Shown here: positions 24,768 to 43,114 of the stretch, in pieces
How positions within the stretch are numbered: position 1 is the first letter of the stretch
How the letters are laid out: each line of letters opens with the position of its first letter
Source of the DNA: Candidatus Tumulicola sp.
Lineage (GTDB): Bacteria; Vulcanimicrobiota; Vulcanimicrobiia; Eremiobacterales; Eremiobacteraceae
Assembly (NCBI GenBank): GCA_035601835.1
Contig: DATNNM010000009.1
Location: 62,001 to 126,000, forward strand
Direction of reading: 5' to 3'
DNA: 64,000 nt
Made by a program: the position numbers and the translations under genes
The notes under the pieces: generated by a model
The model's database searches: none
What the model saw: the letters and a program-made list of their open reading frames with translations, nothing else
Told to the model about the DNA's origin: nothing

Positions 24768-26255
24768 TTAGGAGCTGAGGGTTTTGATGTACTGACGCGC
24801 CTTGTCCGCGATCGGGCCCTTCGGTATGATCACGAGGAAGTTCCGATACGCAGCGATGGCATTGCGCTTGTCGCCCATCATCCTATCGGTTTCGCCAAGC
24901 GCATACCAGAGCTGCGGATCCGGGTGCCCCTTCGTCTGGTGTGACGCGAGCGCTTCGAAGGCATCGCGCGCCTTTCGATACTGCTTCAGGTTCAAGTACG
25001 AAAGCCCGAGGTTGAACAGCGGAGTGTAGCCGCGCGTGACCTCGAACGCGCGCTGATACGTGTCTCTGGCCTGCGCCCATTTCAGTTGGAGGGCGTACGT
25101 TTCGCCGAGCGTCATCAACACGTCGGGGTTATTGGGATCTTGCGCCGAGAGTTTGCTGAGGAGCTCTTGCGCTTTGCCGTACTGCTTTGTCGTCAGCTCG
25201 ATGCGCCCGTATTCGAAGAGCGCCCGTGGGTCGTTGGGCGTGAGCGCCAGCGCTTGATCGTACTCCTGCGCCGCTTTTTTATAATTCTTCTCGTTGACGT
25301 CGTATTCGGCTTGGAGCAAATACGGCTCGGCTGACTTCGGATGGTCCTTGATCGCTTGGGCGAACGCCTGACGCGCCGGATCAATCATCTTCTTCGAAAG
25401 GTAGAGCTCGGCGATGTCGTCTTCCGGTTCGACGCGATCCGGTTGCAGCTTCACGATCGTTTGCAGCGCGGCCAGCGCGCCGGCAACGTCGTTCTTCGCC
25501 GCCAATGCCTCGGCTTTGGCATGCAGTGCATCGAAATTCTTGGGATCGTCGGCGAGGATCAATTGGAACTGCGCGAGGGCGAGGTCCGGGTTAGCATTCT
25601 TGGCGCCCAAGTACGATCGGCCCAGGAGCATGTGGGCGCGAGCGTCCTTCGGTGAGAGCGCGAGCGCTTGGTTCAGCGTCTTGCGGCCTTCGTCGAGCTT
25701 GCCCTGATCGAGCTGCACGGTGGCCAACGCGATGTAGCCGAAGCTCTCTTTTGGATGCAATTGGATGGCTCGGTTGGCGATGCGCGCGGCGTCGTCGAGG
25801 CGGTTCATCGCGAGATACGCGTCCGCGAGGTTCGAGAGAACCGCTTGGTTGGCGGGATCATCGCGCTCCGCGCGTTCGAATGCCGTGACGGAGTCTGCGG
25901 GGTCGTTCAGCTCGCGGTCCGCGATGCCGATGTAGAACCATGCCTCGGCGTCTTCCAAGCCGAGACGCACGGCGTTTTCGAGCTGGTCGCGGCCTTGCGC
26001 CGTTTTGCCTGTTTGGACGAGCAGCACACCCAGTTCCGCACGCGCGCTGCGATCGTTCGGATTGTCTTTGACCGTCTGCGAAAGGGTCGCGATGCGCTCC
26101 TCCGGGCTTGGCGTGGGGGAACCGCTTGGCGACGCGCTTGGGGTCGGGCTGCTCGCGGGCGCCGCTTTCTTCGCTTGCGCGAGGTCAGGCGGACCCGCCA
26201 GCCCGGCCAACAACGCGGCGAGCGCGAAGAGCGCGATGATGATCCGGCTACGCAT
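24768..26255 (-). CDS. Periplasmic/exported TPR protein
   Basis: A 495-residue protein with an N-terminal signal peptide (ALAALLAGLAGPPDLAQA) and a Ser/Pro/Thr linker. More than ten tetratricopeptide repeats follow, in helix pairs such as AELGVLLVQTGKTAQGRDQLE, AWFYIGIADRELNDPADSV and ALFEYGRIELTTKQYGKAQ. TPR arrays bind partner proteins. The ATG at 26255 overlaps etfA by 8 bases, so it is cotranscribed with the electron-transfer flavoprotein genes. A link to electron transfer is suggested by context only. No peptidase or other enzymatic domain is attached. Confidence 0.8.
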   Translation of the reverse strand: MRSRIIIALFALAALLAGLAGPPDLAQAKKAAPASSPTPSASPSGSPTPSPEERIATLSQTVKDNPNDRSARAELGVLLVQTGKTAQGRDQLENAVRLGLEDAEAWFYIGIADRELNDPADSVTAFERAERDDPANQAVLSNLADAYLAMNRLDDAARIANRAIQLHPKESFGYIALATVQLDQGKLDEGRKTLNQALALSPKDARAHMLLGRSYLGAKNANPDLALAQFQLILADDPKNFDALHAKAEALAAKNDVAGALAALQTIVKLQPDRVEPEDDIAELYLSKKMIDPARQAFAQAIKDHPKSAEPYLLQAEYDVNEKNYKKAAQEYDQALALTPNDPRALFEYGRIELTTKQYGKAQELLSKLSAQDPNNPDVLMTLGETYALQLKWAQARDTYQRAFEVTRGYTPLFNLGLSYLNLKQYRKARDAFEALASHQTKGHPDPQLWYALGETDRMMGDKRNAIAAYRNFLVIIPKGPIADKARQYIKTLSS

Positions 26256-27228
26256 TGGCGCGACGCTCCTTCACGAGTTTGGTCAGCTCGGGCACGATCC
26301 CGAAGAGATCGCCGACGACTCCGAAGTCGCAAAACTCGTAGATCGGCGCGTTCCCGTCCTTGTTGATGGCGACGATGAGACCGGCGCTGCGCATGCCGAC
26401 CTTGTGCTGAATGGCGCCCGAGATGCCGCACGCGATGTACAGCTGCGGCGAGACGGTCTTGCCGGTCTGCCCGACTTGGTGCGAGTGCGAGATCCAGCCC
26501 GCGTCCACCGCGGCGCGCGAAGCGCCGACCGCTCCGCCCAGGGCTTCGGCGAGCGCTTCGATGATGTCGAAGTGCTCCGGGCCGCCGAGTCCCCGGCCGC
26601 CGGAAACCACGATGCTGGCTTCCTCGACGCCAAGCTTGCCGGCCTCTTGCGCGACCTTCTCCTCGATCACCGCCTTGTATTGCTTCGCGGGCGGCGCCGG
26701 CAGCTTCGCGATCTCGCCTTTGCCGGGTTGCTGGCGCGCGATGAAACTGTTGGCGCGGCAAGTGATGACGCCGTATTCGGAATTCGCGAAGCGGATCGTG
26801 CTGACGACCGAGCCGCCGAACTTCGGCGACTGCACGACCACCGCGCCATCCTTGATCGCGATGTCCGTGGCGTCCGTGATGACGCCGGCTGCGAAGCGCA
26901 CGCCCATGCGAGCGGCCATGTCCTTGCCGCCGTTGGTGCCGGGGCTGAGCAGCAGCGCCGGCCCCGAATCCTTGAGCAGTTGTTCTAGCGCGTCGGCGGC
27001 CGGGTCGGAGTGAAACGAGCCGGTCGGCACGTCTTCGCCCACATGGATCTTGTCGAGCGGCGTGGACTTGAGCTGCTCTGCCGCCGCGGCGGCACCCTTG
27101 CCCAGCACGACGCCGGCGCAGGGCAGGCTCAACTCTTTGGCGATGTCGGAGCCGCGCGTCGCCATCTCCAGGCCGATGCGGCGCAGCGCTCCTTCTTCTT
27201 GTTCGACGTAGACGATGACGGACTTCAA
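26248..27228 (-). CDS. etfA: Electron-transfer flavoprotein alpha subunit
   Basis: A 326-residue ETF alpha subunit, which with EtfB carries electrons from acyl-CoA and other flavin dehydrogenases. The C-terminal FAD domain shows the family motif GQTGKTVSPQLYIACGISGA followed by GLIVAINKDGNAPIYEFCDFG. The N-terminal part has the expected alpha/beta fold. Two bases separate it from etfB. The stop at 26248 lies inside the start of the TPR gene. Length is normal. No ETF-quinone oxidoreductase is in the window. Confidence 0.95.
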   Translation of the reverse strand: MKSVIVYVEQEEGALRRIGLEMATRGSDIAKELSLPCAGVVLGKGAAAAAEQLKSTPLDKIHVGEDVPTGSFHSDPAADALEQLLKDSGPALLLSPGTNGGKDMAARMGVRFAAGVITDATDIAIKDGAVVVQSPKFGGSVVSTIRFANSEYGVITCRANSFIARQQPGKGEIAKLPAPPAKQYKAVIEEKVAQEAGKLGVEEASIVVSGGRGLGGPEHFDIIEALAEALGGAVGASRAAVDAGWISHSHQVGQTGKTVSPQLYIACGISGAIQHKVGMRSAGLIVAINKDGNAPIYEFCDFGVVGDLFGIVPELTKLVKERRANA

Positions 27229-27230
27229 AA

Positions 27231-28022
27231 TCAGATCACCTTTTTAGAAACGAGAAATTCGAAGATTTTGGTAGCGCCTTCTTTGGGGTCGGAGACGGTA
27301 ATGACGGTCCCCTTCTGGCGCGCGCCGACCGGGGTGAAGGCCTCGACCTTGGTCTTGCTGCCGGCGTCGCCGAGCCGGGATGCCTCGGCTCCGATGTCGG
27401 CCAGGGTGAGCGCCTTGACTTCCTTTTTCTTGGCGCCCATGATGCCTTTGAGGGTCGGATAGCGGGGCTCGTTGATGCCCTTGGTGACCGATACCAGCGC
27501 GGGCAAGGGCGCGCTCACGCGCAGGTAGCCGCTTTCGGTCTCGCGCTGGATCTCGATCTTGCCGTCGCTGACGGTGACTTTTTTGGCGTAGGTGAGGCAC
27601 GGCACGCCGAGATGTTCTGCGATGGCGGCGGGCACGACGCAGCAGATCGCGTCGGTGCTCTGCGTGCCCGAGAGGATGAGATCGAAGCCGATGTGCTTGA
27701 GCGCTTGCGCCAGCACGTAGGCGGTGGCCATCGTGTCGCTGCCGCCGACCGCGTCGTCGGAAAGCAGCGCCGCGTTGTCCGCGCCCATGCCGAGCGCCTT
27801 GCGCACGATTTCGAGCCCGCTGGCGGGCGCCATTGTGAGGATCGTGACGGTCGTGTCGCCGCCGAGCGCTTCCTTTATCTTGAGCGCTTCCTCGATCGCG
27901 TACTCGTCGAACGGGTTGAGGACGTTCTCGATGCTGCTGCGGTTCAGGCGCTTGGTGGCAGCGTCGAACGTTTTTTCCGCATTCGTATCGGGCACTTGCT
28001 TGACGGTGACGACGATTTTCAA
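27231..28022 (-). CDS. etfB: Electron-transfer flavoprotein beta subunit
   Basis: A 263-residue ETF beta subunit. The N-terminus KIVVTVKQVPDTNAEKTFDA, then NPFDEYAIEEALKIKE, LSDDAVGGSDTMATAYVLA and ILSGTQSTDAICCVVPAAIAE are the standard blocks, including AMP contacts. The start is a TTG at 28022, chosen because GGAG sits eight bases upstream and the length matches the family; longer frames reach 28307 but add a nonsense head that crosses the divergent gene. It heads the etfB-etfA-TPR unit. Confidence 0.93.
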   Translation of the reverse strand: MKIVVTVKQVPDTNAEKTFDAATKRLNRSSIENVLNPFDEYAIEEALKIKEALGGDTTVTILTMAPASGLEIVRKALGMGADNAALLSDDAVGGSDTMATAYVLAQALKHIGFDLILSGTQSTDAICCVVPAAIAEHLGVPCLTYAKKVTVSDGKIEIQRETESGYLRVSAPLPALVSVTKGINEPRYPTLKGIMGAKKKEVKALTLADIGAEASRLGDAGSKTKVEAFTPVGARQKGTVITVSDPKEGATKIFEFLVSKKVI

Positions 28023-28154
28023 AAGTAGGCGCTCCAGAACGACGGCGACCACATGGTCGCCGTTTGTCGAAAGAGTCTTGGCATTTCTCGGCCGGTCCGG
28101 CCCGAACCTTGCCGCGAGGCGGGTTCTCGCGCGCGGGCGCGGAACGTGGCCGAC

Positions 28155-28796
28155 ATGATCGTCCTGACCCGGCCGAAGCCCGCACCGACCACGGTCGGTC
28201 TTGCCTGGGATGGCATCCGGTTGTGGGCGGGCGACTGGAAAGAAAAAGCGCTGCTCGAGCTCAACGACGAGCAGGCCGTCGCGGCGCGTCACTCCGCGCC
28301 GGGCCAACCTATTGGTCTGATGTTCGGAGCCGGGCGCTTGCTTGCGGTGCTGGCCGATCCCTCAACCGACGACCGCTCGATTCATTGGTTCGACCCGCAC
28401 GCGCAAGCGTGGGCCGAGCGCACGCTGCGCTGCCCCGACGACACGGGATCGCACGTCTTCTGGGCTGGCCAGAAGTTGTGGCTGAGCCAGCGCTACAACA
28501 AGCGGGTTTTCGAATTTCGCGACGACGGCTCGATCGGAGAGACGATTTCGGTTCCGTGGGAGGTCACCGGGTTCTTCTGGATCGACGCCGATCTGTGGCT
28601 CAGCGTGCGCGTGGAGAAAGGCTTCACCGATGTTGCGCGCCTGCGCCCGGGCATGCAGACGCCCGAACTCATCGAGCGCTATCAAGGCTCCTTTGCGAGT
28701 TTGGCCTACGATGGCAGCGGTTTTTGGATGAGCGAGCTGCGCGGCGAGACGATCGTCAAAGTCAGCCCGGCGGCGTTGATCTCCGCCGCCGCTTGA
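28155..28796 (+). CDS. Beta-propeller-like hypothetical protein
   Basis: A 213-residue protein with blade-like repeats: PTTVGLAWDGIRLWAGDW, HVFWAGQKLWLSQRYNKRVFEF, GFFWIDADLWLSVR and LAYDGSGFWMSELRGETIVKV. The repeated pattern of hydrophobic-Trp strands suggests a half or short beta-propeller related to NHL/SMP-30-like folds. No signal peptide is seen. ATG 28155 is taken as the start. The gene precedes the FAD oxidase gene by 7 bases, so they are cotranscribed. It could be an accessory or lactone-type enzyme, but I cannot assign one. Confidence 0.55.
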   Translation: MIVLTRPKPAPTTVGLAWDGIRLWAGDWKEKALLELNDEQAVAARHSAPGQPIGLMFGAGRLLAVLADPSTDDRSIHWFDPHAQAWAERTLRCPDDTGSHVFWAGQKLWLSQRYNKRVFEFRDDGSIGETISVPWEVTGFFWIDADLWLSVRVEKGFTDVARLRPGMQTPELIERYQGSFASLAYDGSGFWMSELRGETIVKVSPAALISAAA

Positions 28797-28803
28797 CACC
28801 GCG

Positions 28804-29925
28804 ATGAACGTTTCTGTCATCGGCGCAGGGATCATGGGGCTTTCGGCCGCCTGGGCACTGCGTCGCTCCGGGCACCATGTCGGCCTGTACGAACAAGGTG
28901 ACGTGCCGAATGAGCTCGGCTCGTCTTTCGATCAGCACCGCCTCATCCGCTATCCGTACGGGGCACGGTTGGGTTTCACGCGCATGGTGGCGGAGGCGTA
29001 TGCGTCGTGGGATCACCTGTGGGAGGACCTCGGCGAAACGCTGCACGTGCGCACGGGCACGCTGGCGCTCGGTCGCGTCGAAAACAGTTGGGCCGAGGCG
29101 TCCGCCGCCACGCTCGCGAGCGCGGGCATGCCGATGCGCGCTTTGTCCGCAGCGGATGTGGAACGCATTTATCCGATGCTGCGCGCGGATGACCTTCGCG
29201 TCGCGTACTATTTGGAAAGCGGCGGCACGCTGCTCGCTTCGCGGATCGTCGCCGCGCTGGCGCGCTGGCTGCGGGAAAACGGCGTCGGTATCCGCGAGCG
29301 GGCCCGTATTGCGCGCGTCGACGTGGAACGAGCTGCGCTGGAAATGGAGGACGGCACACGCGTCAACGCGGACGCTTTGGTGCTGGCCGCGGGCGCGTGG
29401 GTCACGCGTCTGTTGCCGGACATGAGCGGGCGCGTCACGCCATCGCGTCAGGTCGTCGCCTACGTTCGTCCGCCCGCGCGGTTTAAAGGACACTGGAGCG
29501 TGGCTCCGATGCTGCTCGACCTCGACGGCGAATTGGGGTTTTATCTCGTGCCGCCGGTGCCTGGCACCGACATGAAGATCGGGAAGCACGCGTTCACCCT
29601 GCGCGGCGATCCCGATCGCGAGCGCGAGGCCGGTGAGGCTGAGACTCGCGACATCTTCGCTCGCGCCCGGCGCACGCTTCGCGATTTCGATGATTATACG
29701 ATCGTGGGGGCACGCACGTGCTTCTATACGGTCGAGCCGGACGAGCGCTTTATCGTCGAGCAGCGCGGCAAGACCTGGCTGATCAGCGCCTGCTCCGGAC
29801 ACGGCTTCAAGTTCGGGCCAGCGATCGGCCGGGCCGTGGCGGACGGGGTGAGCGGACGGCGTGCGGCCGCGGAGATCGCAGCCTGGGCGACGGGAGAATA
29901 CAAGGAGGCAGATGTCCGTTCTTGA
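28804..29925 (+). CDS. FAD-dependent amino-acid/sarcosine-oxidase-like flavoenzyme (DAO family)
   Basis: A 373-residue flavoprotein. The FAD motif is VIGAGIMGLSAAWALRRSG. Close to residue 300 is TCFYTVEPDERFIVE, where the Cys corresponds to the residue that carries covalent FAD in monomeric sarcosine oxidase and N-methyltryptophan oxidase. The C-terminal SACSGHGFKFGPAIG block is also that family's signature. Substrate is probably an N-methylated amino acid, but the pocket cannot be read. It overlaps the potassium channel gene by 14 bases. Confidence 0.82.
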   Translation: MNVSVIGAGIMGLSAAWALRRSGHHVGLYEQGDVPNELGSSFDQHRLIRYPYGARLGFTRMVAEAYASWDHLWEDLGETLHVRTGTLALGRVENSWAEASAATLASAGMPMRALSAADVERIYPMLRADDLRVAYYLESGGTLLASRIVAALARWLRENGVGIRERARIARVDVERAALEMEDGTRVNADALVLAAGAWVTRLLPDMSGRVTPSRQVVAYVRPPARFKGHWSVAPMLLDLDGELGFYLVPPVPGTDMKIGKHAFTLRGDPDREREAGEAETRDIFARARRTLRDFDDYTIVGARTCFYTVEPDERFIVEQRGKTWLISACSGHGFKFGPAIGRAVADGVSGRRAAAEIAAWATGEYKEADVRS

Positions 29926-30976
29926 CGTTTTGCTGCTGATCGCCGGCTTGTTCGGCGTAGCGATCTTCCTCTTCGACCTCTTCAACGCGGTCGTCGTGCC
30001 GCGTCAGACTTTCAACCCGTTGCGCGTCGGCTCACGGCTCGTGCGCTGGTCCTGGATCTGGTGGCGCGAGCTCTGCCTGCGCTTCAGTCCTGGCGACCGG
30101 CGCGAGGAGTTGCTGGCCGCGTTCGCCCCGGTCGCCATGGTCGGGTTGCTGTTCGTGTGGATGGGCGGCTTGATCGTCTGCTACGGGATCGCATTTTACG
30201 CCCTGCGCGCTAACTACAATCCGATCATCGCAAGCTTCGGCGACGCGGTGTACCTCTCCGCAAGCTCGATGCTGACGATCGGTTTCGGCGACATCGTCGT
30301 CACGGGCGCGTTCGCGCGTGTGCTGGCAATGGCGTCCGCCGCCTCAGGTCTTGCCGTCGTCGCGGTCGTCATCTCATTTCTGTTCCAGACGTTCGCAGCG
30401 TTTCAGCGCCGAGAAGTCTTTGTCGTCACGCTCGGACAGCGCGCAGGGGCGCCGCCGTCGGGCGTCACGCTGCTCGAGACGGCGATGAAGCTCGATCTCG
30501 TGGACGACTTGATGGCGACGCTTCGCAGCGGTCAGATCTGGAGCAACGAAGTGTTGGAGAGCCACCTCGCGTATCCAATCCTCATATTCTTCCGCTCGAG
30601 TCATGACGATGAGTCGTGGGTGGGCGCGCTCGGGGCGCTGCTGGACGCTTCGACGCTCTTGCTGACCGTGACGGATGGATTGCCCAAGGGCCAGGCGACC
30701 TTGATGTTGGCGACTGGGCACCACCTGGTGAACGATCTTGGCCGTTACTTCGCCTCCGGCGACGACGACGACCCGGGTCTTGAGCGCTTCGAGTTCGATC
30801 AGGCGTGCGAGCGGTTGAAGTCTGCTGGAGCGCACGTCCAGACCGGCGACGACAGCTGGCTTGCCTTCAAGAAAATTCGTGCGAAATACGCGGCGCCGCT
30901 CAACGCCATGGCTAAGTCCTTAGCGATTCCTCCGACGCTTTGGATCGGTGACCGCTCGCCCTTACGCCGCCACTAA
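29912..30976 (+). CDS. Potassium channel-like membrane protein
   Basis: A 354-residue protein with three or four membrane helices: residues 5-30, 75-100 and 138-165, with a pore loop between the last two. The selectivity filter is TIGFGD at residues 132-137, close to TVGYGD, so it is a two-pore-helix ion channel of the voltage-independent type. The cytosolic C-terminal region of about 180 residues is helical with no RCK/TrkA motif I can see. AAGGAGG precedes ATG 29912. It is translationally coupled to the flavoenzyme gene. Confidence 0.75.
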   Translation: MSVLDVLLLIAGLFGVAIFLFDLFNAVVVPRQTFNPLRVGSRLVRWSWIWWRELCLRFSPGDRREELLAAFAPVAMVGLLFVWMGGLIVCYGIAFYALRANYNPIIASFGDAVYLSASSMLTIGFGDIVVTGAFARVLAMASAASGLAVVAVVISFLFQTFAAFQRREVFVVTLGQRAGAPPSGVTLLETAMKLDLVDDLMATLRSGQIWSNEVLESHLAYPILIFFRSSHDDESWVGALGALLDASTLLLTVTDGLPKGQATLMLATGHHLVNDLGRYFASGDDDDPGLERFEFDQACERLKSAGAHVQTGDDSWLAFKKIRAKYAAPLNAMAKSLAIPPTLWIGDRSPLRRH

Positions 30977-31881: not shown

Positions 31882-32179
31882 GGGATGATGGTGGAACGGG
31901 AAGACACGACAGACTTGGACATGAGCCGGAGCGCGGGAAACCGCTTCCGGGATGCGCTCAAAGTCGGCGAACTCTGTGCCCGCGCGGCGGGCGTGACAAC
32001 GCCGAGCCAAGCTCCGGCAACGGAGAAGGTGTAGAGACTGGACGGGCGCGGCCTACGTCGTGATAAACGATATGGTCAAGGCACAGTCCGGACCACAAAT
32101 GCTCGCAGTGGCGAAAGCCATAGTGGTGCGAAAATCTGTCGCCCGCAAGGGCGTCCGGGTTCAAGTCCCGGTCATCCCA
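31882..32179 (+). tRNA. tRNA-Leu (UAA) interrupted by a group I intron
   Basis: Exon 1 (31882-31916) has acceptor GGGATGA, the D arm and ACAGACTT. Exon 2 (32131-32179) has AAAATCTGT, a long variable arm (CGCCCGCAAGGGCG), the T arm CCGGG-TTCAAGT-CCCGG, acceptor TCATCCC and discriminator A. Joined, the anticodon loop reads CTTAAAA, anticodon TAA, with every stem paired and a class II variable arm, as expected for tRNA-Leu. The 214-nt intron lies between U34 and A35 of the anticodon. CCA is not encoded. The mature tRNA would be 84 nt. Confidence 0.92.
31917..32130 (+). ncRNA. Group I self-splicing intron in the tRNA-Leu anticodon loop
   Basis: The 214-nt intron starts after a U (last exon base) and ends in G, as group I introns require. 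It contains the conserved core: a Q-like element AACGCCGAGCCAAGC, an R-like GTGTAGAGACTGGACGGGC and an S-like AAGGCACAGTCC. Near its 5' end CCGGAGCG and CGCTTCCGG flank a GAAA tetraloop, the P2-type hairpin. These match the IC3-type introns of cyanobacterial and plastid tRNA-Leu(UAA), which occupy the same position. No intron-encoded protein fits inside. Confidence 0.88.
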
Positions 32180-32195
32180 CGCAAAATTAGGAATC

Positions 32196-32720
32196 GTGAA
32201 GCAGCGAATTAGCGACGAGCAATTCTCGGAAGCCATAGCAACAGCGCATTCTGCGGCATCGGCCATGAGGAGTCTGGGTCGCCGCCCCGCCGGCGGAAAC
32301 TACCGAATTTTTTACTCCCGCATTGTCTCACTTGGTCTGAGCACCAAGCATTGGACCGGGAGGGGTCACCTTCGAGGCAGGACACACAGCTGGGGTCGAA
32401 AAGCTCCGCTTGAACGGGTCCTTGTTCGGAACAGTCCTTACCAAGGTGGGTCGTACAAGCTGAAACTGCGGTTGGTCGAAGCCGGCCTATTGAGTAGCCG
32501 TTGCGAATCGTGCGGTATCTCTCGGTGGTTAGGAGCGAACATTGCGCTTCACCTGGATCACCGAAACGGGGATAACCGCGACAACAGACTTTTCAATCTT
32601 CGCCTTTTGTGCCCAAACTGTCACAGTCAAACCGCCACCTACTGTGGCAAGAACAAGCGGCTACGCCGCCTGAGTCGACCAACGAACGAACCCACGCTTA
32701 GCGCGCTTTTCCACCTTTAG
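32196..32720 (+). CDS. HNH endonuclease, immediately downstream of the intron-bearing tRNA
   Basis: A 174-residue protein. Residues 1-45 look like a helical DNA-recognition segment (AMRSLGRRPAGGNYRIFYSR). The C-terminal half is an HNH nuclease: CESCGISRWLG, then ALHLDHRNGDNRDNRLFNLRLLCPNCHSQTATYCG, with the catalytic DH, the Asn/His and two CxxC zinc pairs. GTG 32196 has AGGA before it and begins 16 bases after the tRNA. Free-standing HNH proteins of this type often sit next to tRNA genes and can be homing endonucleases. It may cleave the intronless tRNA gene; this is inference. Confidence 0.85.
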   Translation: MKQRISDEQFSEAIATAHSAASAMRSLGRRPAGGNYRIFYSRIVSLGLSTKHWTGRGHLRGRTHSWGRKAPLERVLVRNSPYQGGSYKLKLRLVEAGLLSSRCESCGISRWLGANIALHLDHRNGDNRDNRLFNLRLLCPNCHSQTATYCGKNKRLRRLSRPTNEPTLSALFHL

Positions 32721-32723
32721 GGA

Positions 32724-32808
32724 TAATCCGAGCTTCGCTCGGAACGCTACACCCGAGCTAGCGCTCGGGTCGCTACATTCATTCCGGGGCTAAAGCCCCG
32801 GCACTACA
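32724..32808 (+). repeat. Composite REP-like cluster, copy A of an 85-bp duplicate
   Basis: Three units in tandem: TCCGAGC hairpin + ACGCTACA, CCCGAGC hairpin + TCGCTACA, CCGGGGC hairpin + CACTACA. Positions 32724-32808 appear identical to 34759-34843. The two copies bracket the genes at 32850-34646. Confidence 0.85.
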
Positions 32809-32849
32809 AAGTTAGTCAACAAGTAGTAAGTAGCCGAGGGGCGCGCGCA

Positions 32850-33482
32850 CTACCGGCACTGCCCTCCCCCGATTCCAATTCTAGGTTTGTTAGGCGCCGG
32901 AGGTGGAGGGGGTTCGCCGGGGCACTGGTAGGAGCCGGTGTCGCAAAAATATTGGCAGTGGCAACCCTCGTGATGGTTGTACTCCGTTTTGTCTCTTTCA
33001 TTCAGCAGGAACGCGCGGTCACGCATCGCGTTAAAATCCTTTACGTTGAGGGAATGACGACTCTTACCGTCCTCGCTGTATCGCTTCTGGAGATCCCTCA
33101 ACGTGGCGAGGTCCGTAGTGCTGCCGGGCGACTCTGCTTGGTCAATCCTCACCTGCAGAAGAGCCATGTCGGCGTCCAGGGCCGCTATTTCAGCGTCTAA
33201 TGTGTCGATTAGGTCAGTTAAGGCCTTGATTTTGGCCTCACGGTCTTTAACATAGCTCGCCTCAGGACCACGGTCAGTGCAGGCAAAGGTACCTCCCCTG
33301 CCCTGATAACTGGGATTGCACGAGCCTGGGTCGCCCGCATTTGCGGTTTGACAGCCGGTGAAGTTTCTGGGAGGAATTGTGTACGTGGGTGATGACCCTC
33401 CGGCCGCAGCGCGTGGGAACTGGAAGAGCGTCAAAGCCAAAGCACCTGCAAGCAAACCCCGGAGCGTCTGTGTACTACGCAC
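32850..33482 (-). CDS. Secreted cysteine-containing coiled-coil protein, unknown
   Basis: A 210-residue exported protein. After the signal peptide (ALALTLFQFPRAAAGG), two Cys-containing segments (FTGCQTANAGDPGSCNPSY, then GGTFACTDRG) precede an Asp/Glu/Leu-rich coiled coil at about residues 75-120 (ALTDLIDTLDAEIAALDADMALL). The C-terminal part has EGCHCQYFCDTGSYQCPGEP and a Pro-rich tail. The Cys residues probably form disulfides. I do not know the family. GGAGG precedes GTG 33482, which supports the start. It is followed 12 bases upstream by the multi-span membrane gene. Confidence 0.6.
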   Translation of the reverse strand: MRSTQTLRGLLAGALALTLFQFPRAAAGGSSPTYTIPPRNFTGCQTANAGDPGSCNPSYQGRGGTFACTDRGPEASYVKDREAKIKALTDLIDTLDAEIAALDADMALLQVRIDQAESPGSTTDLATLRDLQKRYSEDGKSRHSLNVKDFNAMRDRAFLLNERDKTEYNHHEGCHCQYFCDTGSYQCPGEPPPPPAPNKPRIGIGGGQCR

Positions 33483-33494
33483 GTTAGGCCTCCC

Positions 33495-34646
33495 TCATTG
33501 AGCTGCGTCGACCCGGAGGATTCCTGGCTCGGCCAGGATGCCGTTTATGGAAATCCGCAGGAAGTACCCGCCAGGCTGCGCGCCTTGCTCGAGGGTAAGG
33601 GTGAACCAAAGGCGCCCCTTCTTGGGGACCGCAGCCCCGTAGATCTCCGACATTTTGAACTTCCGCTCGGCCAGTTGCGCAGCCCCCTTGTACCATATCG
33701 AGTCGATCGTGTCATCACCCGTCAGACCCTCGAAATCGGCGAAGGCGTAAACTGCCTTGATGCCTTGCTGGAAACTCGTTGCCTGACCGATTGGCTGATC
33801 GCCGGACTGGCCGCTTGCGAAGATGACCGGACCAAGCTGGTAAGAAAGCGGGGGAACCTCGATGCGCAGCCCGGTTAGCGCCAAACTCGCGGGTGTACTC
33901 AAGCCCGCCACGGCCACGATGACAGCCGCGCTCAACCCGGCGACCTGGAACCCGCGCCTGCGTAAGAACGAGTGTTGGCTCGGGCTTTCACGCAAGCCGG
34001 TGGCGAGCTGGAACACCAGCGCCGCAGGAACCAGAATCAACGCACCGATGAATGTCCCCTGGAGCCAAAATGGCAGCCGCGCCCATAGGCTCGCGCCGTG
34101 AAAGAGATCCGCATAATCGTTACCCGCGATGATGGCGGGCACGAACGCCGCGATGCCGTAGGCTGCGATGATGCCGGCTGCCCATCTCACCGGCGGTGGG
34201 AGCGCTGTCGACACAGCCAGGACGCCGCCGGCCAGTAGAATCGCCAGAGCCGTGGCCAGGGCGAGAACCGTGGACGTGGGCCATCCGAGCAAGACGATGC
34301 CGCGCGATACGCCGTCTGGAAGCCAAGCAGTCAGTGTGATGAGGAAGAGCAGCACCAGCGCCGAGGCCACCATCTTGGTCGCCCAGGAAGTGCGGCGCCA
34401 GAACAGGGCGGTGGCGGCAGCGTAGAGCGCAACCGTCCCTGCGGTGATCCAGCGCCCCGGCGAACCGCTAATGAAGGTCTCAATCGCGGCATCCGCAAGG
34501 ATGACGTAGAAAGCAATCGCGAGCGCGACCCAGCCGATCGCCGGCATGTTGGAAAACCACTCTCGCGCTATGCCGGGGCCCAGCGGACTCGACGGTGCGG
34601 ACTCCACCCCCGGCGCGGATGACGCGGGGTGATCAACGCCTTCCAT
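33495..34646 (-). CDS. Multi-span membrane protein, unknown
   Basis: A 383-residue integral membrane protein with about eight helices in residues 30-265 (WVALAIAFYVILADAAIETF, GTVALYAAATALFW, GIIAAYGIAAFVPAIIAG among them). The C-terminal soluble part from about residue 270 has SFQQGIKAVYAFADFEGL and KKGRLWFTLTLEQGAQPGGYF, a beta-sandwich-like domain, probably extracytoplasmic. No family is recognised. ATG 34646 follows AGAAGGGA and is preferred to the frame start at 34667. It precedes the secreted Cys-rich gene, so the two probably work together at the envelope. Confidence 0.6.
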   Translation of the reverse strand: MEGVDHPASSAPGVESAPSSPLGPGIAREWFSNMPAIGWVALAIAFYVILADAAIETFISGSPGRWITAGTVALYAAATALFWRRTSWATKMVASALVLLFLITLTAWLPDGVSRGIVLLGWPTSTVLALATALAILLAGGVLAVSTALPPPVRWAAGIIAAYGIAAFVPAIIAGNDYADLFHGASLWARLPFWLQGTFIGALILVPAALVFQLATGLRESPSQHSFLRRRGFQVAGLSAAVIVAVAGLSTPASLALTGLRIEVPPLSYQLGPVIFASGQSGDQPIGQATSFQQGIKAVYAFADFEGLTGDDTIDSIWYKGAAQLAERKFKMSEIYGAAVPKKGRLWFTLTLEQGAQPGGYFLRISINGILAEPGILRVDAAQ

Positions 34647-34758
34647 AGGAACCGATTCCCTTCTCACTCGCGCCTGATCTAGGTGTGGGTGAAGCTAACT
34701 CGATTCGTCGGTGGGTTGTGGACCGGAGGTTTGGGCGTCTAGAGTTGTATCCCTCCGG

Positions 34759-34910
34759 TAATCCGAGCTTCGCTCGGAACGCTACACCCGAGCTAGCGCT
34801 CGGGTCGCTACATTCATTCCGGGGCTAAAGCCCCGGCACTACACGGTTATGACGTCCGAGCTTCGCTCGGAACGCTACATTCATTCCGGGGCTAAAGCCC
34901 CGGCACTACA
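34759..34910 (+). repeat. Composite REP-like cluster, copy B plus two more units
   Basis: Positions 34759-34843 repeat the 85-bp cluster at 32724. A further pair, TCCGAGC hairpin + ACGCTACA and CCGGGGC hairpin + CACTACA, follows to 34910, making five units. The cluster precedes the stop of the Ppx/GppA-like gene. Confidence 0.85.
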
Positions 34911-34919
34911 AGCGAGCGT

Positions 34920-35831
34920 TTATGGGCTGTTGAGCAAGAGGTAGCCGAGGAGCAGGTCGCTCTCGGCCACCATCATTGCGTCTCTTTTCGCTGCGCGCGC
35001 GATCTCGTCGAGGATCATCAGCCCCGCTGGAAAGATGTCCGCGCGTTGCGGCGGCAGACCACGCAGCCGCTTCCGCTCGGCGAGCGGCAGGGCGACAGTC
35101 AAATCTGTCAAGTCGGCGATATCCGCGCGCTCGATTCTTGCGACGCCCGGACCGATCGCGTCGTATGCTTGCAGCATGCGGGCTGCTGTGTCGGCAGTGC
35201 CGCCGACCGCCACGAGCGACTGGTTCTCGCCGAGCGCGGGCAGAGCGTTCGCGAGCGAAATTCTGATCGCCGTGCGGCATGCGGCTATCTCGCTCGCCGC
35301 GGGCGGATCGGTCTTGAAGAATTCTTCCTTAAGCGCGACTCCGCCCAGCGTCAGGGAAATCGCACGGATCGCGGCGTCACGCGCGTCGCTCAGCGCAAGT
35401 TCGGTGCTGCCGCCGCCGACGTCGGCCACGCAGGCTCCGTTTGATCGATCGATGCCAGCGCGGTCGAGCGACCACATCGCGCCGGCGAACGAGGCGCGCG
35501 CTTCTTCTTCTCCGCTCAGGACTCGCAGAGTGAGCCCGGTCTTCGCCTTGACCTGATCCGCGAAGGCGCTCGCGTTTGCCGCCTGGCGCAGTGCGCCGGT
35601 GCCGATGAGGAACGTCTTCTCCGCCTGGCTCGCCAGACGGTTGAACTCGACGATCGCCGCGAGGGTGCGCGCCATGGCCTCGTCGGAGAGTTTGCCGGAT
35701 GCCGTTACGCCCTCGCCGAGCCGCGTGCCTCGGATATCGTGGTGCTCAATTTCGATCGGGTCACGGCCTTCTCGGCGCACGATCAGCAACCGGCACGAGT
35801 TGGTGCCGGCCGAGATGACGGCAAGGCGCAT
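34920..35831 (-). CDS. Ppx/GppA phosphatase family protein
   Basis: A 303-residue member of the exopolyphosphatase/pppGpp phosphatase family (ASKHA fold). ISAGTNSCRLLIV is the phosphate-1 motif, in which the usual Asp of DxGSNS-type sequences reads Ala-Gly-Thr-Asn. GACVADVGGGSTELAL is the phosphate-2 block, with SGEEEARASFAGA between them. LVAVGGTADTAARML and the C-terminal helices complete the fold. ATG 35831 starts two bases after the S1-like gene. It is last in the hrcA operon. Substrate (polyphosphate or pppGpp) cannot be told. Confidence 0.85.
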   Translation of the reverse strand: MRLAVISAGTNSCRLLIVRREGRDPIEIEHHDIRGTRLGEGVTASGKLSDEAMARTLAAIVEFNRLASQAEKTFLIGTGALRQAANASAFADQVKAKTGLTLRVLSGEEEARASFAGAMWSLDRAGIDRSNGACVADVGGGSTELALSDARDAAIRAISLTLGGVALKEEFFKTDPPAASEIAACRTAIRISLANALPALGENQSLVAVGGTADTAARMLQAYDAIGPGVARIERADIADLTDLTVALPLAERKRLRGLPPQRADIFPAGLMILDEIARAAKRDAMMVAESDLLLGYLLLNSP

Positions 35832-35833
35832 GA

Positions 35834-36262
35834 CTAACGCTTCTTGCGCGGGGGCCGCTTCGCCGACTCGCGATACTGACGGCGGGCGCGCATCTCGAAC
35901 GGCAGCAGGCGATCGGCACGCGGCGGTCCGGTTTGATACGCCTGCTCGGCGATAGCGCCTTTGGGATCCCAATCGGCCGTCTGGCGCAAGTAGTCGATGA
36001 TCTTCTCGTCGAGTGTGGATGTTTGGGTTTGTGTGACGGGGGTCTCGACGGCGGGTTGGTCGGGCGCGAGGCTCAAGCGGGGCCGGCCGTCGGTCTCCTC
36101 GAGCATGAATCCGAAGCGCGCGCGTTTGCCTCCTGCGAGCGCGCGGCGGACGGCGGCGTGCCCCGGTTCCGACGGCGCTAGATTCGCGAGGCGGCCGTCC
36201 TCAAGACGAACGACGCAGCCGAAGCGGCTGCAATGAACGGCAGTTCCGTTGACACGTTCCAT
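35834..36262 (-). CDS. S1-like OB-fold protein, unknown
   Basis: A 142-residue protein. The N-terminal 65 residues resemble an S1-type RNA-binding OB fold: VNGTAVHCSRFGCVVRLEDGRLANLAPSEPG, with the strand-turn pattern GxVxxxxxFGxxVxLxDG. Residues 75-142 are a low-complexity basic tail (PRADRLLPFEMRARRQYRESAKRPPRKKR), probably RNA-contacting. It lies between divIC and the Ppx-like gene, 8 and 2 bases from them. In Firmicutes an S1-domain protein (YabR type) also follows divIC, which supports the call. Confidence 0.6.
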   Translation of the reverse strand: MERVNGTAVHCSRFGCVVRLEDGRLANLAPSEPGHAAVRRALAGGKRARFGFMLEETDGRPRLSLAPDQPAVETPVTQTQTSTLDEKIIDYLRQTADWDPKGAIAEQAYQTGPPRADRLLPFEMRARRQYRESAKRPPRKKR

Positions 36263-36270
36263 CGGCGGCG

Positions 36271-36672
36271 CTATTTCGGGGCTGGGGCGACTTGGATGAA
36301 GACTTCGTTCGGTTTGGTGAGACCCAGCTGTTCGTGGATGAGCGGCACCAAGTACTCAGGATTGTGTGAGTACAGGATCTCGCGGCTCAGCGTGACCGCG
36401 CGGGCACTCAAGTTGTGGTTTTGCGCCTCGAGCGTCACGATCTGCTTGTGAAGCTCATAGTTCCGGTAGCCGATGTGCCATGCTTGCGCGCCGAACGATA
36501 CGGCGACGAGCAGCACCGCAACGATAGCGATCGTCCGGCCCGCCAGAACGGTCCAGTGCAGCAGCTTACGTTCGCGCGCGCGGCGAGCGGCACGCCCTGC
36601 GGGCTTGCCGGCGATGCGGCTGACTTTGAAGCCGAAGCTACCGCGCCGCACGGTCGTGCACCAGTTCGGCAT
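36271..36672 (-). CDS. Septum formation initiator (FtsB/DivIC-like)
   Basis: A 133-residue bitopic membrane protein. A basic cytoplasmic head, one helix (AIVAVLLVAVSFGAQA), then a coiled coil (ELHKQIVTLEAQNHNLSARAVTLSRE) and a short segment with PEYLVPLIHEQLGLTKPNEV give the DivIC/FtsB profile. Such proteins join the FtsL-FtsQ complex at the division septum. The start is uncertain: the frame overlaps accA by 35 bases from ATG 36672, and GTG 36651 would shorten it. Its place between accA and the S1-like gene is consistent with coupling of growth and division. Confidence 0.8.
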   Translation of the reverse strand: MPNWCTTVRRGSFGFKVSRIAGKPAGRAARRARERKLLHWTVLAGRTIAIVAVLLVAVSFGAQAWHIGYRNYELHKQIVTLEAQNHNLSARAVTLSREILYSHNPEYLVPLIHEQLGLTKPNEVFIQVAPAPK

Positions 36673-37612
36673 GCGCGCCGATCTTGCGGTACTTCTCGTA
36701 ACGACGGTCGAGGAGCTCGTCCGTCGGCAGACGCAGCAACTGGGCTAGCGCGCGCTTGTCGGTTTCGAGCACGCTTCGAATGACCACATCTGGTTTGCTG
36801 TGCGCCCCGCCGAGCGGTTCGGGCACGACCTCGTCCACGATGCCGAATTCGAACAGATCGTCTGAGGTCAGCCGCAAGCGGCTCGCCGCCTCTTCTGCCT
36901 TCGAGGCGTCGCGCCACAGGATCGAAGCCGCGGGCTCGGGCGAAGCGACCGAATAGATCGCGTGCTGCAGCATGGCGATGTGATCGCCGATGCCGATGGC
37001 GAGCGCTCCGCCGCTGCCGCCTTCGCCGATGACGTTGATCACGATCGGCGTGCGCAGCCCGGCGAGCACCGTCAAGTTCGCTGCGATGGCTTCGGATTGG
37101 CCGCGCTCTTCCGCTCCGATGCCCGGATAAGCGCCCGGCGTGTCGATAAAGGTCACCAGCGGCTTGTGAAATTTCTCGGCCAAACGCATGATGCGCTGCG
37201 CTTTGCGATAACCTTCCGGATGCGACATGCCGAAATTGCGGTAGAGATTTTCTTTGGTGTCGCGGCCCTTCTGCTGGCCGAGCACGAATATCGGTACGCC
37301 ACCCAGGCTTGCGAAGCCCGCGACCATGGCTGGGTCGTCGCGAAAGTGCCGATCGCCGTGCAGCTCGACGAACCCGTCGAGTGCGGCGAGATAGTCGAGC
37401 GCGAGCGGCCGCTTCGGATGGCGCGCCATGTGAACGCGCTGCCATGGCGTGAGATTGCCGAAAATCTCCTGCCGGAGCGAGACCGCCTTTTCTTCCAGCG
37501 CGCGGATCTCCGCCGAGAAATCGACGCGCTGCGACTCGTTGAGCTTCTTGAGCCCGTCGATCTTCGCTTCGAGCTCGACCAGCGGGCGCTCCAGTTCGGC
37601 GATGAGGTTCAC
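36638..37612 (-). CDS. accA: Acetyl-CoA carboxylase carboxyltransferase subunit alpha
   Basis: A 324-residue carboxyltransferase alpha subunit, which with AccD moves the carboxyl group from biotin to acetyl-CoA for fatty-acid synthesis. Markers are LTPWQRVHMARHPKRPLALDY, LGQQKGRDTKENLYRNFGMSHPEGYRKA and FIDTPGAYPGIGAEERGQSEAIA. The oxyanion-hole segment is VINVIGEGGSGGALAIGIGD. GTG 37612 overlaps the accD stop (GTGA). Biotin carboxylase (AccC) and AccB are not in this operon. Confidence 0.97.
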   Translation of the reverse strand: MNLIAELERPLVELEAKIDGLKKLNESQRVDFSAEIRALEEKAVSLRQEIFGNLTPWQRVHMARHPKRPLALDYLAALDGFVELHGDRHFRDDPAMVAGFASLGGVPIFVLGQQKGRDTKENLYRNFGMSHPEGYRKAQRIMRLAEKFHKPLVTFIDTPGAYPGIGAEERGQSEAIAANLTVLAGLRTPIVINVIGEGGSGGALAIGIGDHIAMLQHAIYSVASPEPAASILWRDASKAEEAASRLRLTSDDLFEFGIVDEVVPEPLGGAHSKPDVVIRSVLETDKRALAQLLRLPTDELLDRRYEKYRKIGAHAELVHDRAAR

Positions 37613-38457
37613 GCCGGCACCGCCTTGGCGGTGAGAAAGCGCAGCACGCCCGCGAGCGCGCTCTTCATCTCGCTGCGGCGCACGACCATGTCCACCTGTC
37701 CGTGCTCGAGCAGAAACTCTGCGGATTGGAAGCCTTCGGGAAGCTTTTGCCGGATCGTCTGGTCGATCACGCGCCGGCCTGCGAACCCGATCGCCGCGCC
37801 GCTCTCCGCGATGATGACGTCTGCTTGGAAACCAAACGAGGCCGAAACGCCGCCGGTGGTCGGATCCGTGAGGATAGTGATGAGAGGCAGGCCGACCTGG
37901 CCGAAACGCTGCACCGCCGCGCTGGTCTTCGCCAGCTGCATGAGCGCGATCATGCCTTCTTCCATGCGCGCGCCGCCCGAGGCGGTCACAATGACGGCCG
38001 GCAACTTGCGCCGGGCGCAATCTTCGATCAGCAGCGTGATCTTTTCACCGACGACCCCGCCCATGGTACCGCCTCGAAATGCGAAATCCATCACGCCGAG
38101 ACCGATTGGGATACCGTCGACCGTGCAAAACCCCGTCATCACCGCTTCGAGCAGACCGGCTTTGGCGCGATCGCCGGCGATCTTCTCCGCATAAGGAATG
38201 CGGTCGTGCCATTGCAGCGGATTGCCGGTGGCAAGATTTTCCGCGGTCTCGTGAAAATCGCCGTCGGCGAGCAGCGCGATGCGCTCGAGCGCGCTCAAAC
38301 GGAAATGGTAACCGCACTTCGGGCAGACCCGCAAACGCTGCTCGAGGTCTTTGATGTAAAGACGCTCGTTACAGCTTGGGCAGATCTCCCATAGCGTGTC
38401 TTCGGCCGCTTGCGGCCGTGGGGTGCGCCGACGCAACCAGTTCGGTGTCGGTGTCAA
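37609..38457 (-). CDS. accD: Acetyl-CoA carboxylase carboxyltransferase subunit beta
   Basis: A 282-residue carboxyltransferase beta subunit. An N-terminal zinc ribbon has CPSC at about residue 26 and CPKC at about residue 45. The carboxyltransferase fold follows, with FAFRGGTMGGVVGEKITLLIEDC and VTASGGARMEEGMIALMQ. Length and order are normal. ATG 38457 starts six bases after the glycosyltransferase gene. It precedes accA, the partner subunit. Confidence 0.97.
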   Translation of the reverse strand: MTPTPNWLRRRTPRPQAAEDTLWEICPSCNERLYIKDLEQRLRVCPKCGYHFRLSALERIALLADGDFHETAENLATGNPLQWHDRIPYAEKIAGDRAKAGLLEAVMTGFCTVDGIPIGLGVMDFAFRGGTMGGVVGEKITLLIEDCARRKLPAVIVTASGGARMEEGMIALMQLAKTSAAVQRFGQVGLPLITILTDPTTGGVSASFGFQADVIIAESGAAIGFAGRRVIDQTIRQKLPEGFQSAEFLLEHGQVDMVVRRSEMKSALAGVLRFLTAKAVPA

Positions 38458-38463
38458 ATGAGA

Positions 38464-39222
38464 CTACTCACGTCCCTTGGAGGCTTCAAGCGAGGCGGCG
38501 AGTTCGGGCCGTTTCTTTCGCCTAAGGTAGAATTTCGACAATTGTTTCAAATAGTTTATGATCTCACCGGAGTTGAGCTTGCTCGAACCGTGGGCGCGGT
38601 CGGTGAAAACATATGGTATTTCCTTTGCGGCGCGATACTTCCCTTTCATGATGACCTCGAGCCCGATCTTGAATCCGATCGGATCGAGCGCGACGCCTTC
38701 GATCACCGAGCGTCTGCAAAAGAAAAAACCAGAGGTGATGTCGCGGATCGGCGTGAGCGGGCGCGCGAGCGCGATCGCGACGCGCGAGGTTATCCTGCGT
38801 CGCAACGGCCAATTGATGATGGCGCCGCCCTTCACGTAGCGGCTGCCGATCGCCAGCTCGCATGCGCCGCTCTTGATCGCTTCGATCATCTGCGGCACGA
38901 CGTTGGGATCGTGACTGAAATCCGCATCCATGACGCCGATGATCGGCGACATGCAGGTCGCCCAGCCGTCGATGACGGCTGACGACAGACCGAGTTTGCC
39001 GGCGCGATGCACGCAGCGCACGGGATATTTCGCAGCGAGCGAATCCACGAGCGCGCCGGTGCCGTCGGGCGAGTTGTCGTCGACGACGACGATCTCGCCG
39101 GCAATATTATTCTTCGCGAAGACGTCCGTGAGGGCGGCGATCAGCTTCTCGATGCCGCCGGCTTCGTTGTAGGACGGACTGACGACGGACACTTCGTATT
39201 GCGGCATTTGGTGTGTGTTCAT
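38464..39222 (-). CDS. Glycosyltransferase family 2, polyprenyl-phosphate mannose/glucose synthase-like
   Basis: A 252-residue GT2 enzyme like dolichyl- or polyprenyl-phosphate mannosyltransferase (DPM1). SPSYNEAGGIEKLIAAL and VVVDDNSPDGTGALVDSL start the GT-A fold, MDADFSHDPNVVPQM supplies the DxD-like metal site, and IGSRYVKGGAIINWPLRRR and DITSGFFFCRR are DPM-family signatures. No membrane helix follows, so it is the single-domain soluble form. It probably makes a lipid-linked sugar for envelope glycans or glycoprotein. It lies between rsmE and accD. Confidence 0.88.
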   Translation of the reverse strand: MNTHQMPQYEVSVVSPSYNEAGGIEKLIAALTDVFAKNNIAGEIVVVDDNSPDGTGALVDSLAAKYPVRCVHRAGKLGLSSAVIDGWATCMSPIIGVMDADFSHDPNVVPQMIEAIKSGACELAIGSRYVKGGAIINWPLRRRITSRVAIALARPLTPIRDITSGFFFCRRSVIEGVALDPIGFKIGLEVIMKGKYRAAKEIPYVFTDRAHGSSKLNSGEIINYLKQLSKFYLRRKKRPELAASLEASKGRE

Positions 39223-39240
39223 GGACGCTGTTAACCCGAC

Positions 39241-39960
39241 CTACCAGAAATGGGAGGCGATCGCGGCGAGCAGCGCCATCGCCGCAGTTTCGGTTCGCAA
39301 AATCGTGGGGCCGAGCGAGACGAGTGTCGCGCCCGCGGCTCGCGCGGTCTCGAGTTCGCTTTCCGTGAAGCTGCCCTCCGGACCGACGGCGATGGTCAGC
39401 ACGTCGCGCGCTTTTAGTGCGCGTACGATCGGCGCGAGCGAACCGGGCGGAGCGCTCTCGACCGCCACGATAAGCTTGCCGGCCGCTTCTCGGACGGCGC
39501 TCGCCCAATCGCGCGTGGCCTCGACCGTCGGGAGATTGACGCGGCGTGATTGCTCCGCCGCGGCGCGAGCGATGCGCCGCCACCGATCGATCTTTTGCTG
39601 GCCTGCGCGCGCGCTGCTGCGCTCGCACTCCACCGGCACGATGCGCCGCACGCCTAACTCGACGGCCTTCTCGACGACGAAGTCGAATTTCGCGCCTTTG
39701 GTGACGCCTTGCAGCAGCGAGACGTCCAGCGGAAGTTCGCCGCGCTCGCCGGCTGCGACACCGGCGCACGTCGCGCGCACGCCGTCGGCTCCGACATGCG
39801 AGAGCGTTGCGTTCCACGCGACGCCATCGCGCACGAGCGTGACCTCCCCGCCCGCTTTCATGCGCAGCACGAGTGTGGCGTGGCGTGCATCGAGTGCGTC
39901 GAGCTCGATCTCTCGGCCAGGCCCGCAGGTTTGCGAAACGAAAAAGCGCGGCCGGCTCAT
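39241..39960 (-). CDS. rsmE: 16S rRNA m3U1498 methyltransferase
   Basis: A 239-residue SPOUT methyltransferase that methylates U1498 of 16S rRNA. MSRPRFFVSQTCGPGREI opens the PUA-like domain, LRMKAGGEVTLVRDG follows, and the C-terminal knot contains LTIAVGPEGSFTESELE and LGPTILRTETAAMALLAAI, with the usual Gly-rich loop. The ATG 39960 overlaps the prmA stop (ATGA). prmA-rsmE downstream of dnaJ is a common bacterial arrangement and adds support. Confidence 0.95.
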   Translation of the reverse strand: MSRPRFFVSQTCGPGREIELDALDARHATLVLRMKAGGEVTLVRDGVAWNATLSHVGADGVRATCAGVAAGERGELPLDVSLLQGVTKGAKFDFVVEKAVELGVRRIVPVECERSSARAGQQKIDRWRRIARAAAEQSRRVNLPTVEATRDWASAVREAAGKLIVAVESAPPGSLAPIVRALKARDVLTIAVGPEGSFTESELETARAAGATLVSLGPTILRTETAAMALLAAIASHFW

Positions 39961-40769: not shown

Positions 40770-40837
40770 CGCTGAAGCCGGCTCGAACTCTTCCGCCGCG
40801 ACCTCGAGTGAGAAGCGGACCAGGTGCGACGCCGGGG

Positions 40838-41947: not shown

Positions 41948-41954
41948 CGTGCGT

Positions 41955-43055: not shown

Positions 43056-43081
43056 TAGCAGTCGGCACTCGAGAGTGCTAA
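43055..43081. promoter_or_regulatory. CIRCE operator for HrcA
   Basis: TTAGCAGTC, nine bases, GAGTGCTAA. This matches the CIRCE consensus (TTAGCACTC-N9-GAGTGCTAA) with one mismatch. It overlaps the first base of the hrcA start codon, so bound HrcA would cover the ribosome entry or start of transcription. Confidence 0.92.
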
Positions 43082-43114
43082 ATGTATGGTACGCCGACCC
43101 GGCACAGCGTCCCT

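Follow-up and report, generated by a model that had tools for sequence, protein, structure and literature searches.

The window analyzed here, a stretch of 64,000 nucleotides from a genome of the phylum Eremiobacterota, carries at 31882-32179 a tRNA-Leu(UAA) gene that is split between U34 and A35 by a 214-nt group I intron. An open reading frame for an HNH protein starts 16 nt past the last base of the tRNA. The features of the locus are as follows.

31882..31916, plus strand: 5' exon of tRNA-Leu(UAA), from the acceptor to U34, called by ARAGORN with introns allowed and on the spliced exons, and matched by intronless alleles of the class.
31917..32130, plus strand: group I intron, 214 nt, between U34 and A35, from ARAGORN, a 23-intron alignment with pair counts, and a weak RF00028 match at 31952-32050.
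31953..31959, plus strand: 5' strand of P3, which pairs with the 3' strand at 32044..32050 (pseudoknot); 7 pairs, invariant in 23 introns.
31964..31969, plus strand: 5' strand of P4, which pairs with the 3' strand at 32000..32005; 100% paired.
32012..32025, plus strand: P6a hairpin, CTCCG-GCAA-CGGAG, with changes on both sides in 5/5 pairs.
32036..32040, plus strand: 5' strand of P7, which pairs with the 3' strand at 32084..32088; invariant.
32131..32179, plus strand: 3' exon of tRNA-Leu(UAA), from A35 to the discriminator A, from ARAGORN and intronless alleles.
32189..32192, plus strand: AGGA, a possible, closely spaced Shine-Dalgarno sequence ahead of the GTG at 32196.
32196..32720, plus strand: intact HNH gene with a GTG start, 174 aa, a relative of phrog_10822, from the open reading frame, a profile match, and an alignment-based AlphaFold2 model with a mean pLDDT of 88.
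32196..32333, plus strand: N-terminal three-helix, helix-turn-helix-like domain (residues 1-46 of the AlphaFold2 model), presumed to bind DNA.
32502..32624, plus strand: HNH beta-beta-alpha-metal core of the C-terminal domain, with C103, C106, H122, N134, C139, C142, and H143.

The earlier note had joined the two halves into one tRNA-Leu(UAA) with an insertion between U34 and A35, and this reading was confirmed. With introns allowed, ARAGORN called a tRNA-Leu(UAA) with a 214-nt intron; the joined exons alone were also scored as tRNA-Leu(UAA), and removal of the insertion restores a complete tRNA, with no CCA encoded at its 3' end. Run without the intron option, the program reported zero tRNAs across the window, and an Rfam scan at gathering thresholds likewise came back empty. 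The 5' exon ends in GACTT and the 3' exon starts with AAAATC. Intronless tRNA-Leu(UAA) alleles of the same class, identified by ARAGORN at 15 exon-only loci in 14 genomes, have an anticodon loop of exactly GACTT-AAAATC, except for AAAATT in place of AAAATC at one of the 15. The intron ends are therefore natural rather than guessed. A DNA search of the window genome (G000) gave a single match for tRNA-Leu(UAA), which is the basis for counting no second copy, and splicing is therefore probably required for the reading of UUA codons in this organism. The intron would have to splice itself out of tRNA-Leu(UAA), and we predict that it is self-splicing.

For two other intron-bearing tRNA-Leu(UAA) genes (L004 and L008), ARAGORN chose the wrong splice points and reported tRNA-Trp(CCA). 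In automatic annotation, genes of this kind would go missing or receive the wrong name, and default tRNA and Rfam searches miss tRNA-Leu(UAA) genes in such genomes. Misses by default ARAGORN or at the Rfam gathering threshold were not counted as absence of the tRNA or of the intron.

A group I structure with helices P2 to P9 and a P3/P7 pseudoknot was drawn by hand on the window sequence and counted over 23 aligned Eremiobacterota introns. Standard pairs made up 93.6% of the drawn structure, compared to 32-41% in slid versions, although a structure derived from the window sequence is somewhat favored in this comparison. Changes on both sides were found in 23 of the 56 pairs (144 cells versus 48.7 after shuffling), and the covariation score was 0.306 (0.113 when shuffled). 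The covarying helices are the variable ones, namely, P2, P5, P6a, P8, and P9b; P3 and P7 never vary. The P3/P7 core is accompanied by P4, P6, P8, and P9, and both the U before the 5' site and the terminal G of the intron are present. Judged by this covariation in relatives, the intron belongs to the short group I type known from tRNA genes, presumably to subgroup IC3. The group I core visible at first reading is upheld. In the covariance search, which the earlier note had named as a check, Rfam RF00028 scored 12.5 bits over 31952-32050, well short of the curated cut-off of 50. This cut-off is a detection threshold rather than a defining trait, the model is general, and the intron is short; the covariation in relatives supports the fold. 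Two further group I intron matches in this genome lie within the 23S rRNA gene, at G000:C12:203600-203870 (L001; 64.7 bits, above the cut-off) and G000:C12:204824-205097 (L002; 39.6 bits, below the cut-off).

The adjoining gene had been recognized as an HNH gene from its letters, and all family-invariant HNH, catalytic, and zinc residues are indeed present in its product. The protein matches phrog_10822 (E value of 1.6e-43) and, like that family, combines the HNH motif and zinc cysteines with the family-wide N-terminal domain. It falls under the cut-off of Pfam PF01844 (18.9 versus 21.4 bits). A fold search of the model returned general HNH matches only, none with an E value of <=0.001 in Foldseek and none with a Z score of >=8; the N-terminal domain weakly resembled GcrA (residues 2-49, Z score of 3.3). 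The GC content of the gene is 56.2%, versus 62.9% for the window, and one neighboring gene is similar (57.2%).

A DNA search of the phylum matched tRNA-Leu(UAA) in 82 of 149 Eremiobacterota genomes. The intron is present in approximately 50 of the 149, a figure read off the match list from matches that extend into the intron, and the remaining matches are exon only. The suspicion that the host is not a cyanobacterium was correct, since a genome of the same class (G038) is that of "Candidatus Eremiobacterota bacterium palsa_1504." When intron and host were compared, as had been suggested from the sequence, the introns were found to follow host family: in a tree of intron cores, those of family f1, including the window intron, form one group (support of 94/91), and ORF-bearing introns of other phyla form groups apart from f1. 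Three relatives (G004, G011, and G013) have the same gene order, with genes that align to parts of window 25853-30961 and 34993-43601 flanking the intron-bearing tRNA. The tree and this synteny point to an intron passed on largely by descent and lost or absent in several cases. The approximately 50 genomes, the grouping by host family, the exact intronless junctions, and the covariation over 23 introns together argue that the intron is old and mainly inherited. In one of the three relatives (G013; L254, 8937-9240), the tRNA-Leu is inverted compared to its syntenic neighbors, so that either the tRNA by itself or a small segment has been turned around locally.

The history of the HNH gene appears to be different. 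In the three relatives, the intron-bearing tRNA and the flanking genes on both sides are shared, but the HNH gene is absent. In G004, about 69 nt separate the tRNA from the downstream gene that can be aligned, whereas about 2.8 kb intervene in the window genome. This extra DNA, window 32181-34992, is missing from all three relatives; its ends are approximate, as the 3' flanks of the relatives are unalignable as DNA even though the genes on both sides are syntenic. The segment also holds two minus-strand ORFs, at 32850-33482 and 33495-34667. Across the phylum, an HNH gene adjoins the tRNA at 2 of the approximately 50 intron-bearing loci, and the only other genome with an HNH gene beside an intron-bearing tRNA-Leu(UAA) is the palsa_1504 genome, where the gene lies 58 nt away and its product is 46-48% identical. 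The other f1 genomes searched gave no match near the strength of the window HNH. Presence is patchy and relatives have empty sites at the same locus, as expected of a homing endonuclease; the intron and the free-standing HNH gene are not codistributed, contrary to what a collaborative pair would show. Among the best matches, the nearest relatives of the window protein are HNH proteins of viral contigs, at <=54% identity; their genes are mostly beside tRNA-Leu(UAA) and commonly on its 3' side, like the window gene. The occurrence of an intron-bearing tRNA without HNH in three relatives with the same gene order marks the window HNH as a later arrival. Together with the patchy presence, the lower GC content, and the viral nearest relatives, it indicates a later acquisition that was plausibly from a phage.

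We examined the genomic setting of the HNH family in its 80 strongest matches from genome contigs and its 79 strongest from viral contigs, which are top matches rather than random members; the 80 stand among at least 523 confirmed family members. An ordinary tRNA lies within 300 nt in 68/80 of the genome-contig and 68/79 of the viral-contig best matches. With long-intron tRNAs added, a tRNA-Leu lies within 150 nt of the HNH gene or surrounds it in 74 of the 79 bacterial cases that could be classed among the best 80. The best matches in viral contigs comprise 44 with tRNA-Leu and 26 with other tRNAs among 77. None of 30 control HNH genes (PF01844) from the same genomes had a tRNA within 800 nt, although most of these controls look like one orthologous family. 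The tRNA specificity also tracks the HNH tree, with 16 changes between Leu and other tRNAs compared to at least 36 in 100 label shuffles. The tie to tRNA-Leu genes noticed at a single locus is thus strongly supported by relatives in many phyla and in phages, and the family stays with the same conserved gene in lineage after lineage, as is typical of homing endonucleases.

Nearly all other free-standing copies adjoin intronless tRNA-Leu genes, including UAG and CAA genes, at which no intron was seen. These neighbors suggest that the target is wider than the UAA anticodon. Of the free bacterial copies among the best matches, 52 of 57 lie immediately upstream of a tRNA-Leu that is read in the same direction, and the stop codon often falls within the tRNA or right ahead of it; phage copies occur on either side. 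A search for split-tRNA remnants on the far side of the HNH gene gave nothing other than neighboring tRNAs. In named phages, the family gene lies between tRNA-Leu-TAA and tRNA-Leu-TAG (Enterococcus phage EFDG1), exactly between tRNA-Glu and tRNA-Gly (Rhodococcus phage Francesca), and in a tRNA array (Pakpunavirus B8); Staphylococcus phage YCP has no annotated tRNA near it. Close pairs of family members have dN/dS ratios of 0.06-0.38, as is characteristic of purifying selection. In clades of Pseudonocardia and CPR bacteria, the gene has apparently been kept vertically upstream of tRNA-Leu, which might also point to domestication.

Several settings depart from tRNA-Leu. A sister subfamily in Eremiobacterota relatives (L037-L062) is almost always found at a tRNA-Gln(CUG)-tRNA-Glu(CUC) pair, sometimes in 2-3 copies or as decayed ORFs, and often with its stop codon inside tRNA-Gln. 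Another Eremiobacterota genome (G072; L035, 1-2549) has a family HNH gene amid an array of 19 tRNAs that resembles phage or plasmid arrays. In three viral contigs (L190, L192, and L219), HNH relatives adjoin a tRNA that ARAGORN calls tRNA-Pyl(CUA).

In other bacteria, the same family is encoded within the tRNA-Leu(UAA) intron itself. We found 16 such bacterial loci, spread over five or more phyla (Pseudomonadota, Acidobacteriota, a cyanobacterium, Armatimonadota, and Bacteroidota), as well as three viral contigs. The 16 loci came from bacterial cases in which a tRNA-Leu was at first unseen; for two of them, ARAGORN joins the exons wrongly and calls Phe and Ser tRNAs. The HNH-bearing introns are approximately 680-750 nt long and have the same junctions and core as the intron type of the window. 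The HNH gene is antisense near P6, close to where the window intron has its P6a hairpin, in Proteobacteria, Acidobacteria, and the cyanobacterium Alkalinema. It is in the sense orientation near the 5' end in Bacteroidota and Armatimonadota, and sense but further 3' at one locus (L083). At L088 (2804-3593), a stop or frameshift breaks the gene, which is thus decaying in an intron whose core is kept. The organism names of most of these loci rest on metagenome binning; a Gly-Cys-Leu tRNA order beside several of them supports the gammaproteobacterial assignment. Monophyly of the 18 intron-embedded proteins was rejected (AU test, P = 4.5e-5, for a grouping picked after the first tree was seen), and free mycobacterial and phage HNH genes nest among the intron-embedded ones. 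This polyphyly and nesting indicate that the HNH gene has switched between the free and intron-borne states more than once.

We consider it likely that the window combines an old, mainly inherited intron with a free-standing homing endonuclease that was acquired later and horizontally and whose family targets tRNA genes, those for tRNA-Leu above all. In many bacteria and phages, relatives of the HNH gene are found next to tRNA-Leu genes or within the same intron of them; it is therefore probably a selfish element with tRNA genes as its homing target, and we infer with good support that its product cuts them. The enzyme would cut or nick the tRNA-Leu gene in DNA that lacks the HNH gene, such as that of an incoming phage or another strain, and repair from the donor would copy the HNH gene along with the tRNA. 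A family that seeks the very gene housing the tRNA-Leu(UAA) intron would account for the repeated arrival of the HNH gene inside that intron, which would make composite mobile introns; at the window locus, the intron and the HNH gene are neighbors that have not fused. Counting against homing, a free copy beside an intact intronless tRNA-Leu would expose its own locus to cleavage, unless the enzyme nicks, has weak expression, or recognizes the flank. The window HNH also lies 3' of its tRNA, in contrast to most free bacterial copies, and the lack of a split-tRNA remnant across the HNH gene and the vertical retention in some clades likewise speak against homing.

The earlier note had imagined the intron and the HNH gene as a possible mobile unit, with the HNH enzyme cutting intronless tRNA genes. 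In a collaborative pair of this kind, the cut would fall where the intron inserts in tRNA-Leu genes that lack it, and intron and HNH gene would be copied together. The model for this is F-CphI, the endonuclease in the collaborative homing of psbA introns in cyanophages. The short distances at the two Eremiobacterota loci (16 and 58 nt), the intronless alleles of the same class as potential targets, and the presence of the family inside the tRNA-Leu(UAA) intron elsewhere are all in its favor. However, the intron is older and far more widespread in the phylum than the HNH gene and follows host family, the HNH gene joined a locus that already bore the intron, and nearly all other free copies are at intronless tRNA-Leu genes with UAG and CAA anticodons among them. 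Such a pair is therefore unlikely here, and the different histories of its two parts make it at most a nascent collaborative couple. The mobile unit is not supported for the window genome, with its three HNH-less syntenic relatives. Because the family sits inside the intron elsewhere, such a unit does seem to exist in other bacteria.

The HNH gene might instead land at safe tRNA flanks, as integrases do, without recognizing the tRNA gene. Since tRNA genes are common insertion sites and some members lie by non-Leu tRNAs, such as the Gln(CUG)-Glu(CUC) pair of the same class, this has some appeal, but we regard it as improbable: the far side of the HNH gene has no tRNA remnant, the choice of tRNA-Leu follows the HNH tree, the family has come to lie inside the tRNA-Leu intron several independent times, and the control HNH genes have no tRNA preference. 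That the gene is a domesticated nuclease or antiphage gene, transcribed with the tRNA and no longer selfish, would agree with the purifying selection and the apparent long retention in Pseudonocardia and CPR bacteria but is very improbable given the patchy, lineage-specific presence in Eremiobacterota and the jumps between phage, chromosome, and intron.

The homing endonuclease favored here resembles known systems in part. I-HmuI, whose host gene is a phage DNA polymerase gene, shares the HNH beta-beta-alpha-metal fold and intron homing. Its structure (1u3e) is a weak match to the window protein (Z score of 2.9), in which the N-terminal domain is unmatched. I-Ssp6803I, reportedly described by Bonocora and Shub in 2001 (cited in PMC3984707) as encoded in the cyanobacterial tRNA-fMet group I intron, also pairs such an intron with a nuclease that targets a tRNA gene; however, it has a PD-(D/E)XK fold, acts on tRNA-fMet, and is intron encoded, whereas the window enzyme is an HNH protein. 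The collaborative homing mechanism of phage psbA introns (PMC3984707) involves a phage protein gene, in contrast to the bacterial tRNA gene of the window. SegB of T4/T6 phages is a free-standing homing endonuclease near tRNA genes, as here, and cuts inside them, but it is a GIY-YIG enzyme of phages, and is not described as associated with an intron (PMC13096335). HNH genes have also been described amid mycobacterial and phage tRNA arrays (PMC5966550 and PMC6582537), which are alike in position, with HNH genes lying among tRNA genes; these reports describe arrays, and neither a tRNA-Leu-wide family nor copies in tRNA-Leu introns. Introns in tRNA-Leu have been described from cyanobacteria and plastids and from giant sulfur bacteria (PMC3984707, PMC4853749, and PMC3610870), including tRNA-Leu-TAA introns in Beggiatoa and Thiomargarita (PMC4853749). 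The window intron is like the cyanobacterial and plastid one in its tRNA, its U34/A35 site, its short length without an ORF, and its kind of core but differs in its host, a member of the Eremiobacterota, and in the intronless alleles within the class. The openly accessible papers searched contained no report of this HNH family in a tRNA-Leu intron or of a tRNA-Leu-wide family.

The tRNA-Leu(UAA) intron is the textbook ancient intron of cyanobacteria and plastids, and its mobility is an old question. This intron type is common in Eremiobacterota, and an HNH family that shadows tRNA-Leu is found inside it in other phyla. The family is a concrete candidate for a mobility enzyme, with ready intron-plus and intron-minus alleles and independent captures, and offers material for testing the endonuclease-invasion and collaborative-homing models. 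It may also explain HNH genes that adjoin bacterial tRNA-Leu genes. On the most far-reaching reading, which is about as likely as not, the HNH family would drive the spread of a tRNA-Leu intron that is usually treated as ancient, ORF-less, and immobile, and it would provide natural stages in which the invasion of introns by endonuclease genes can be followed.
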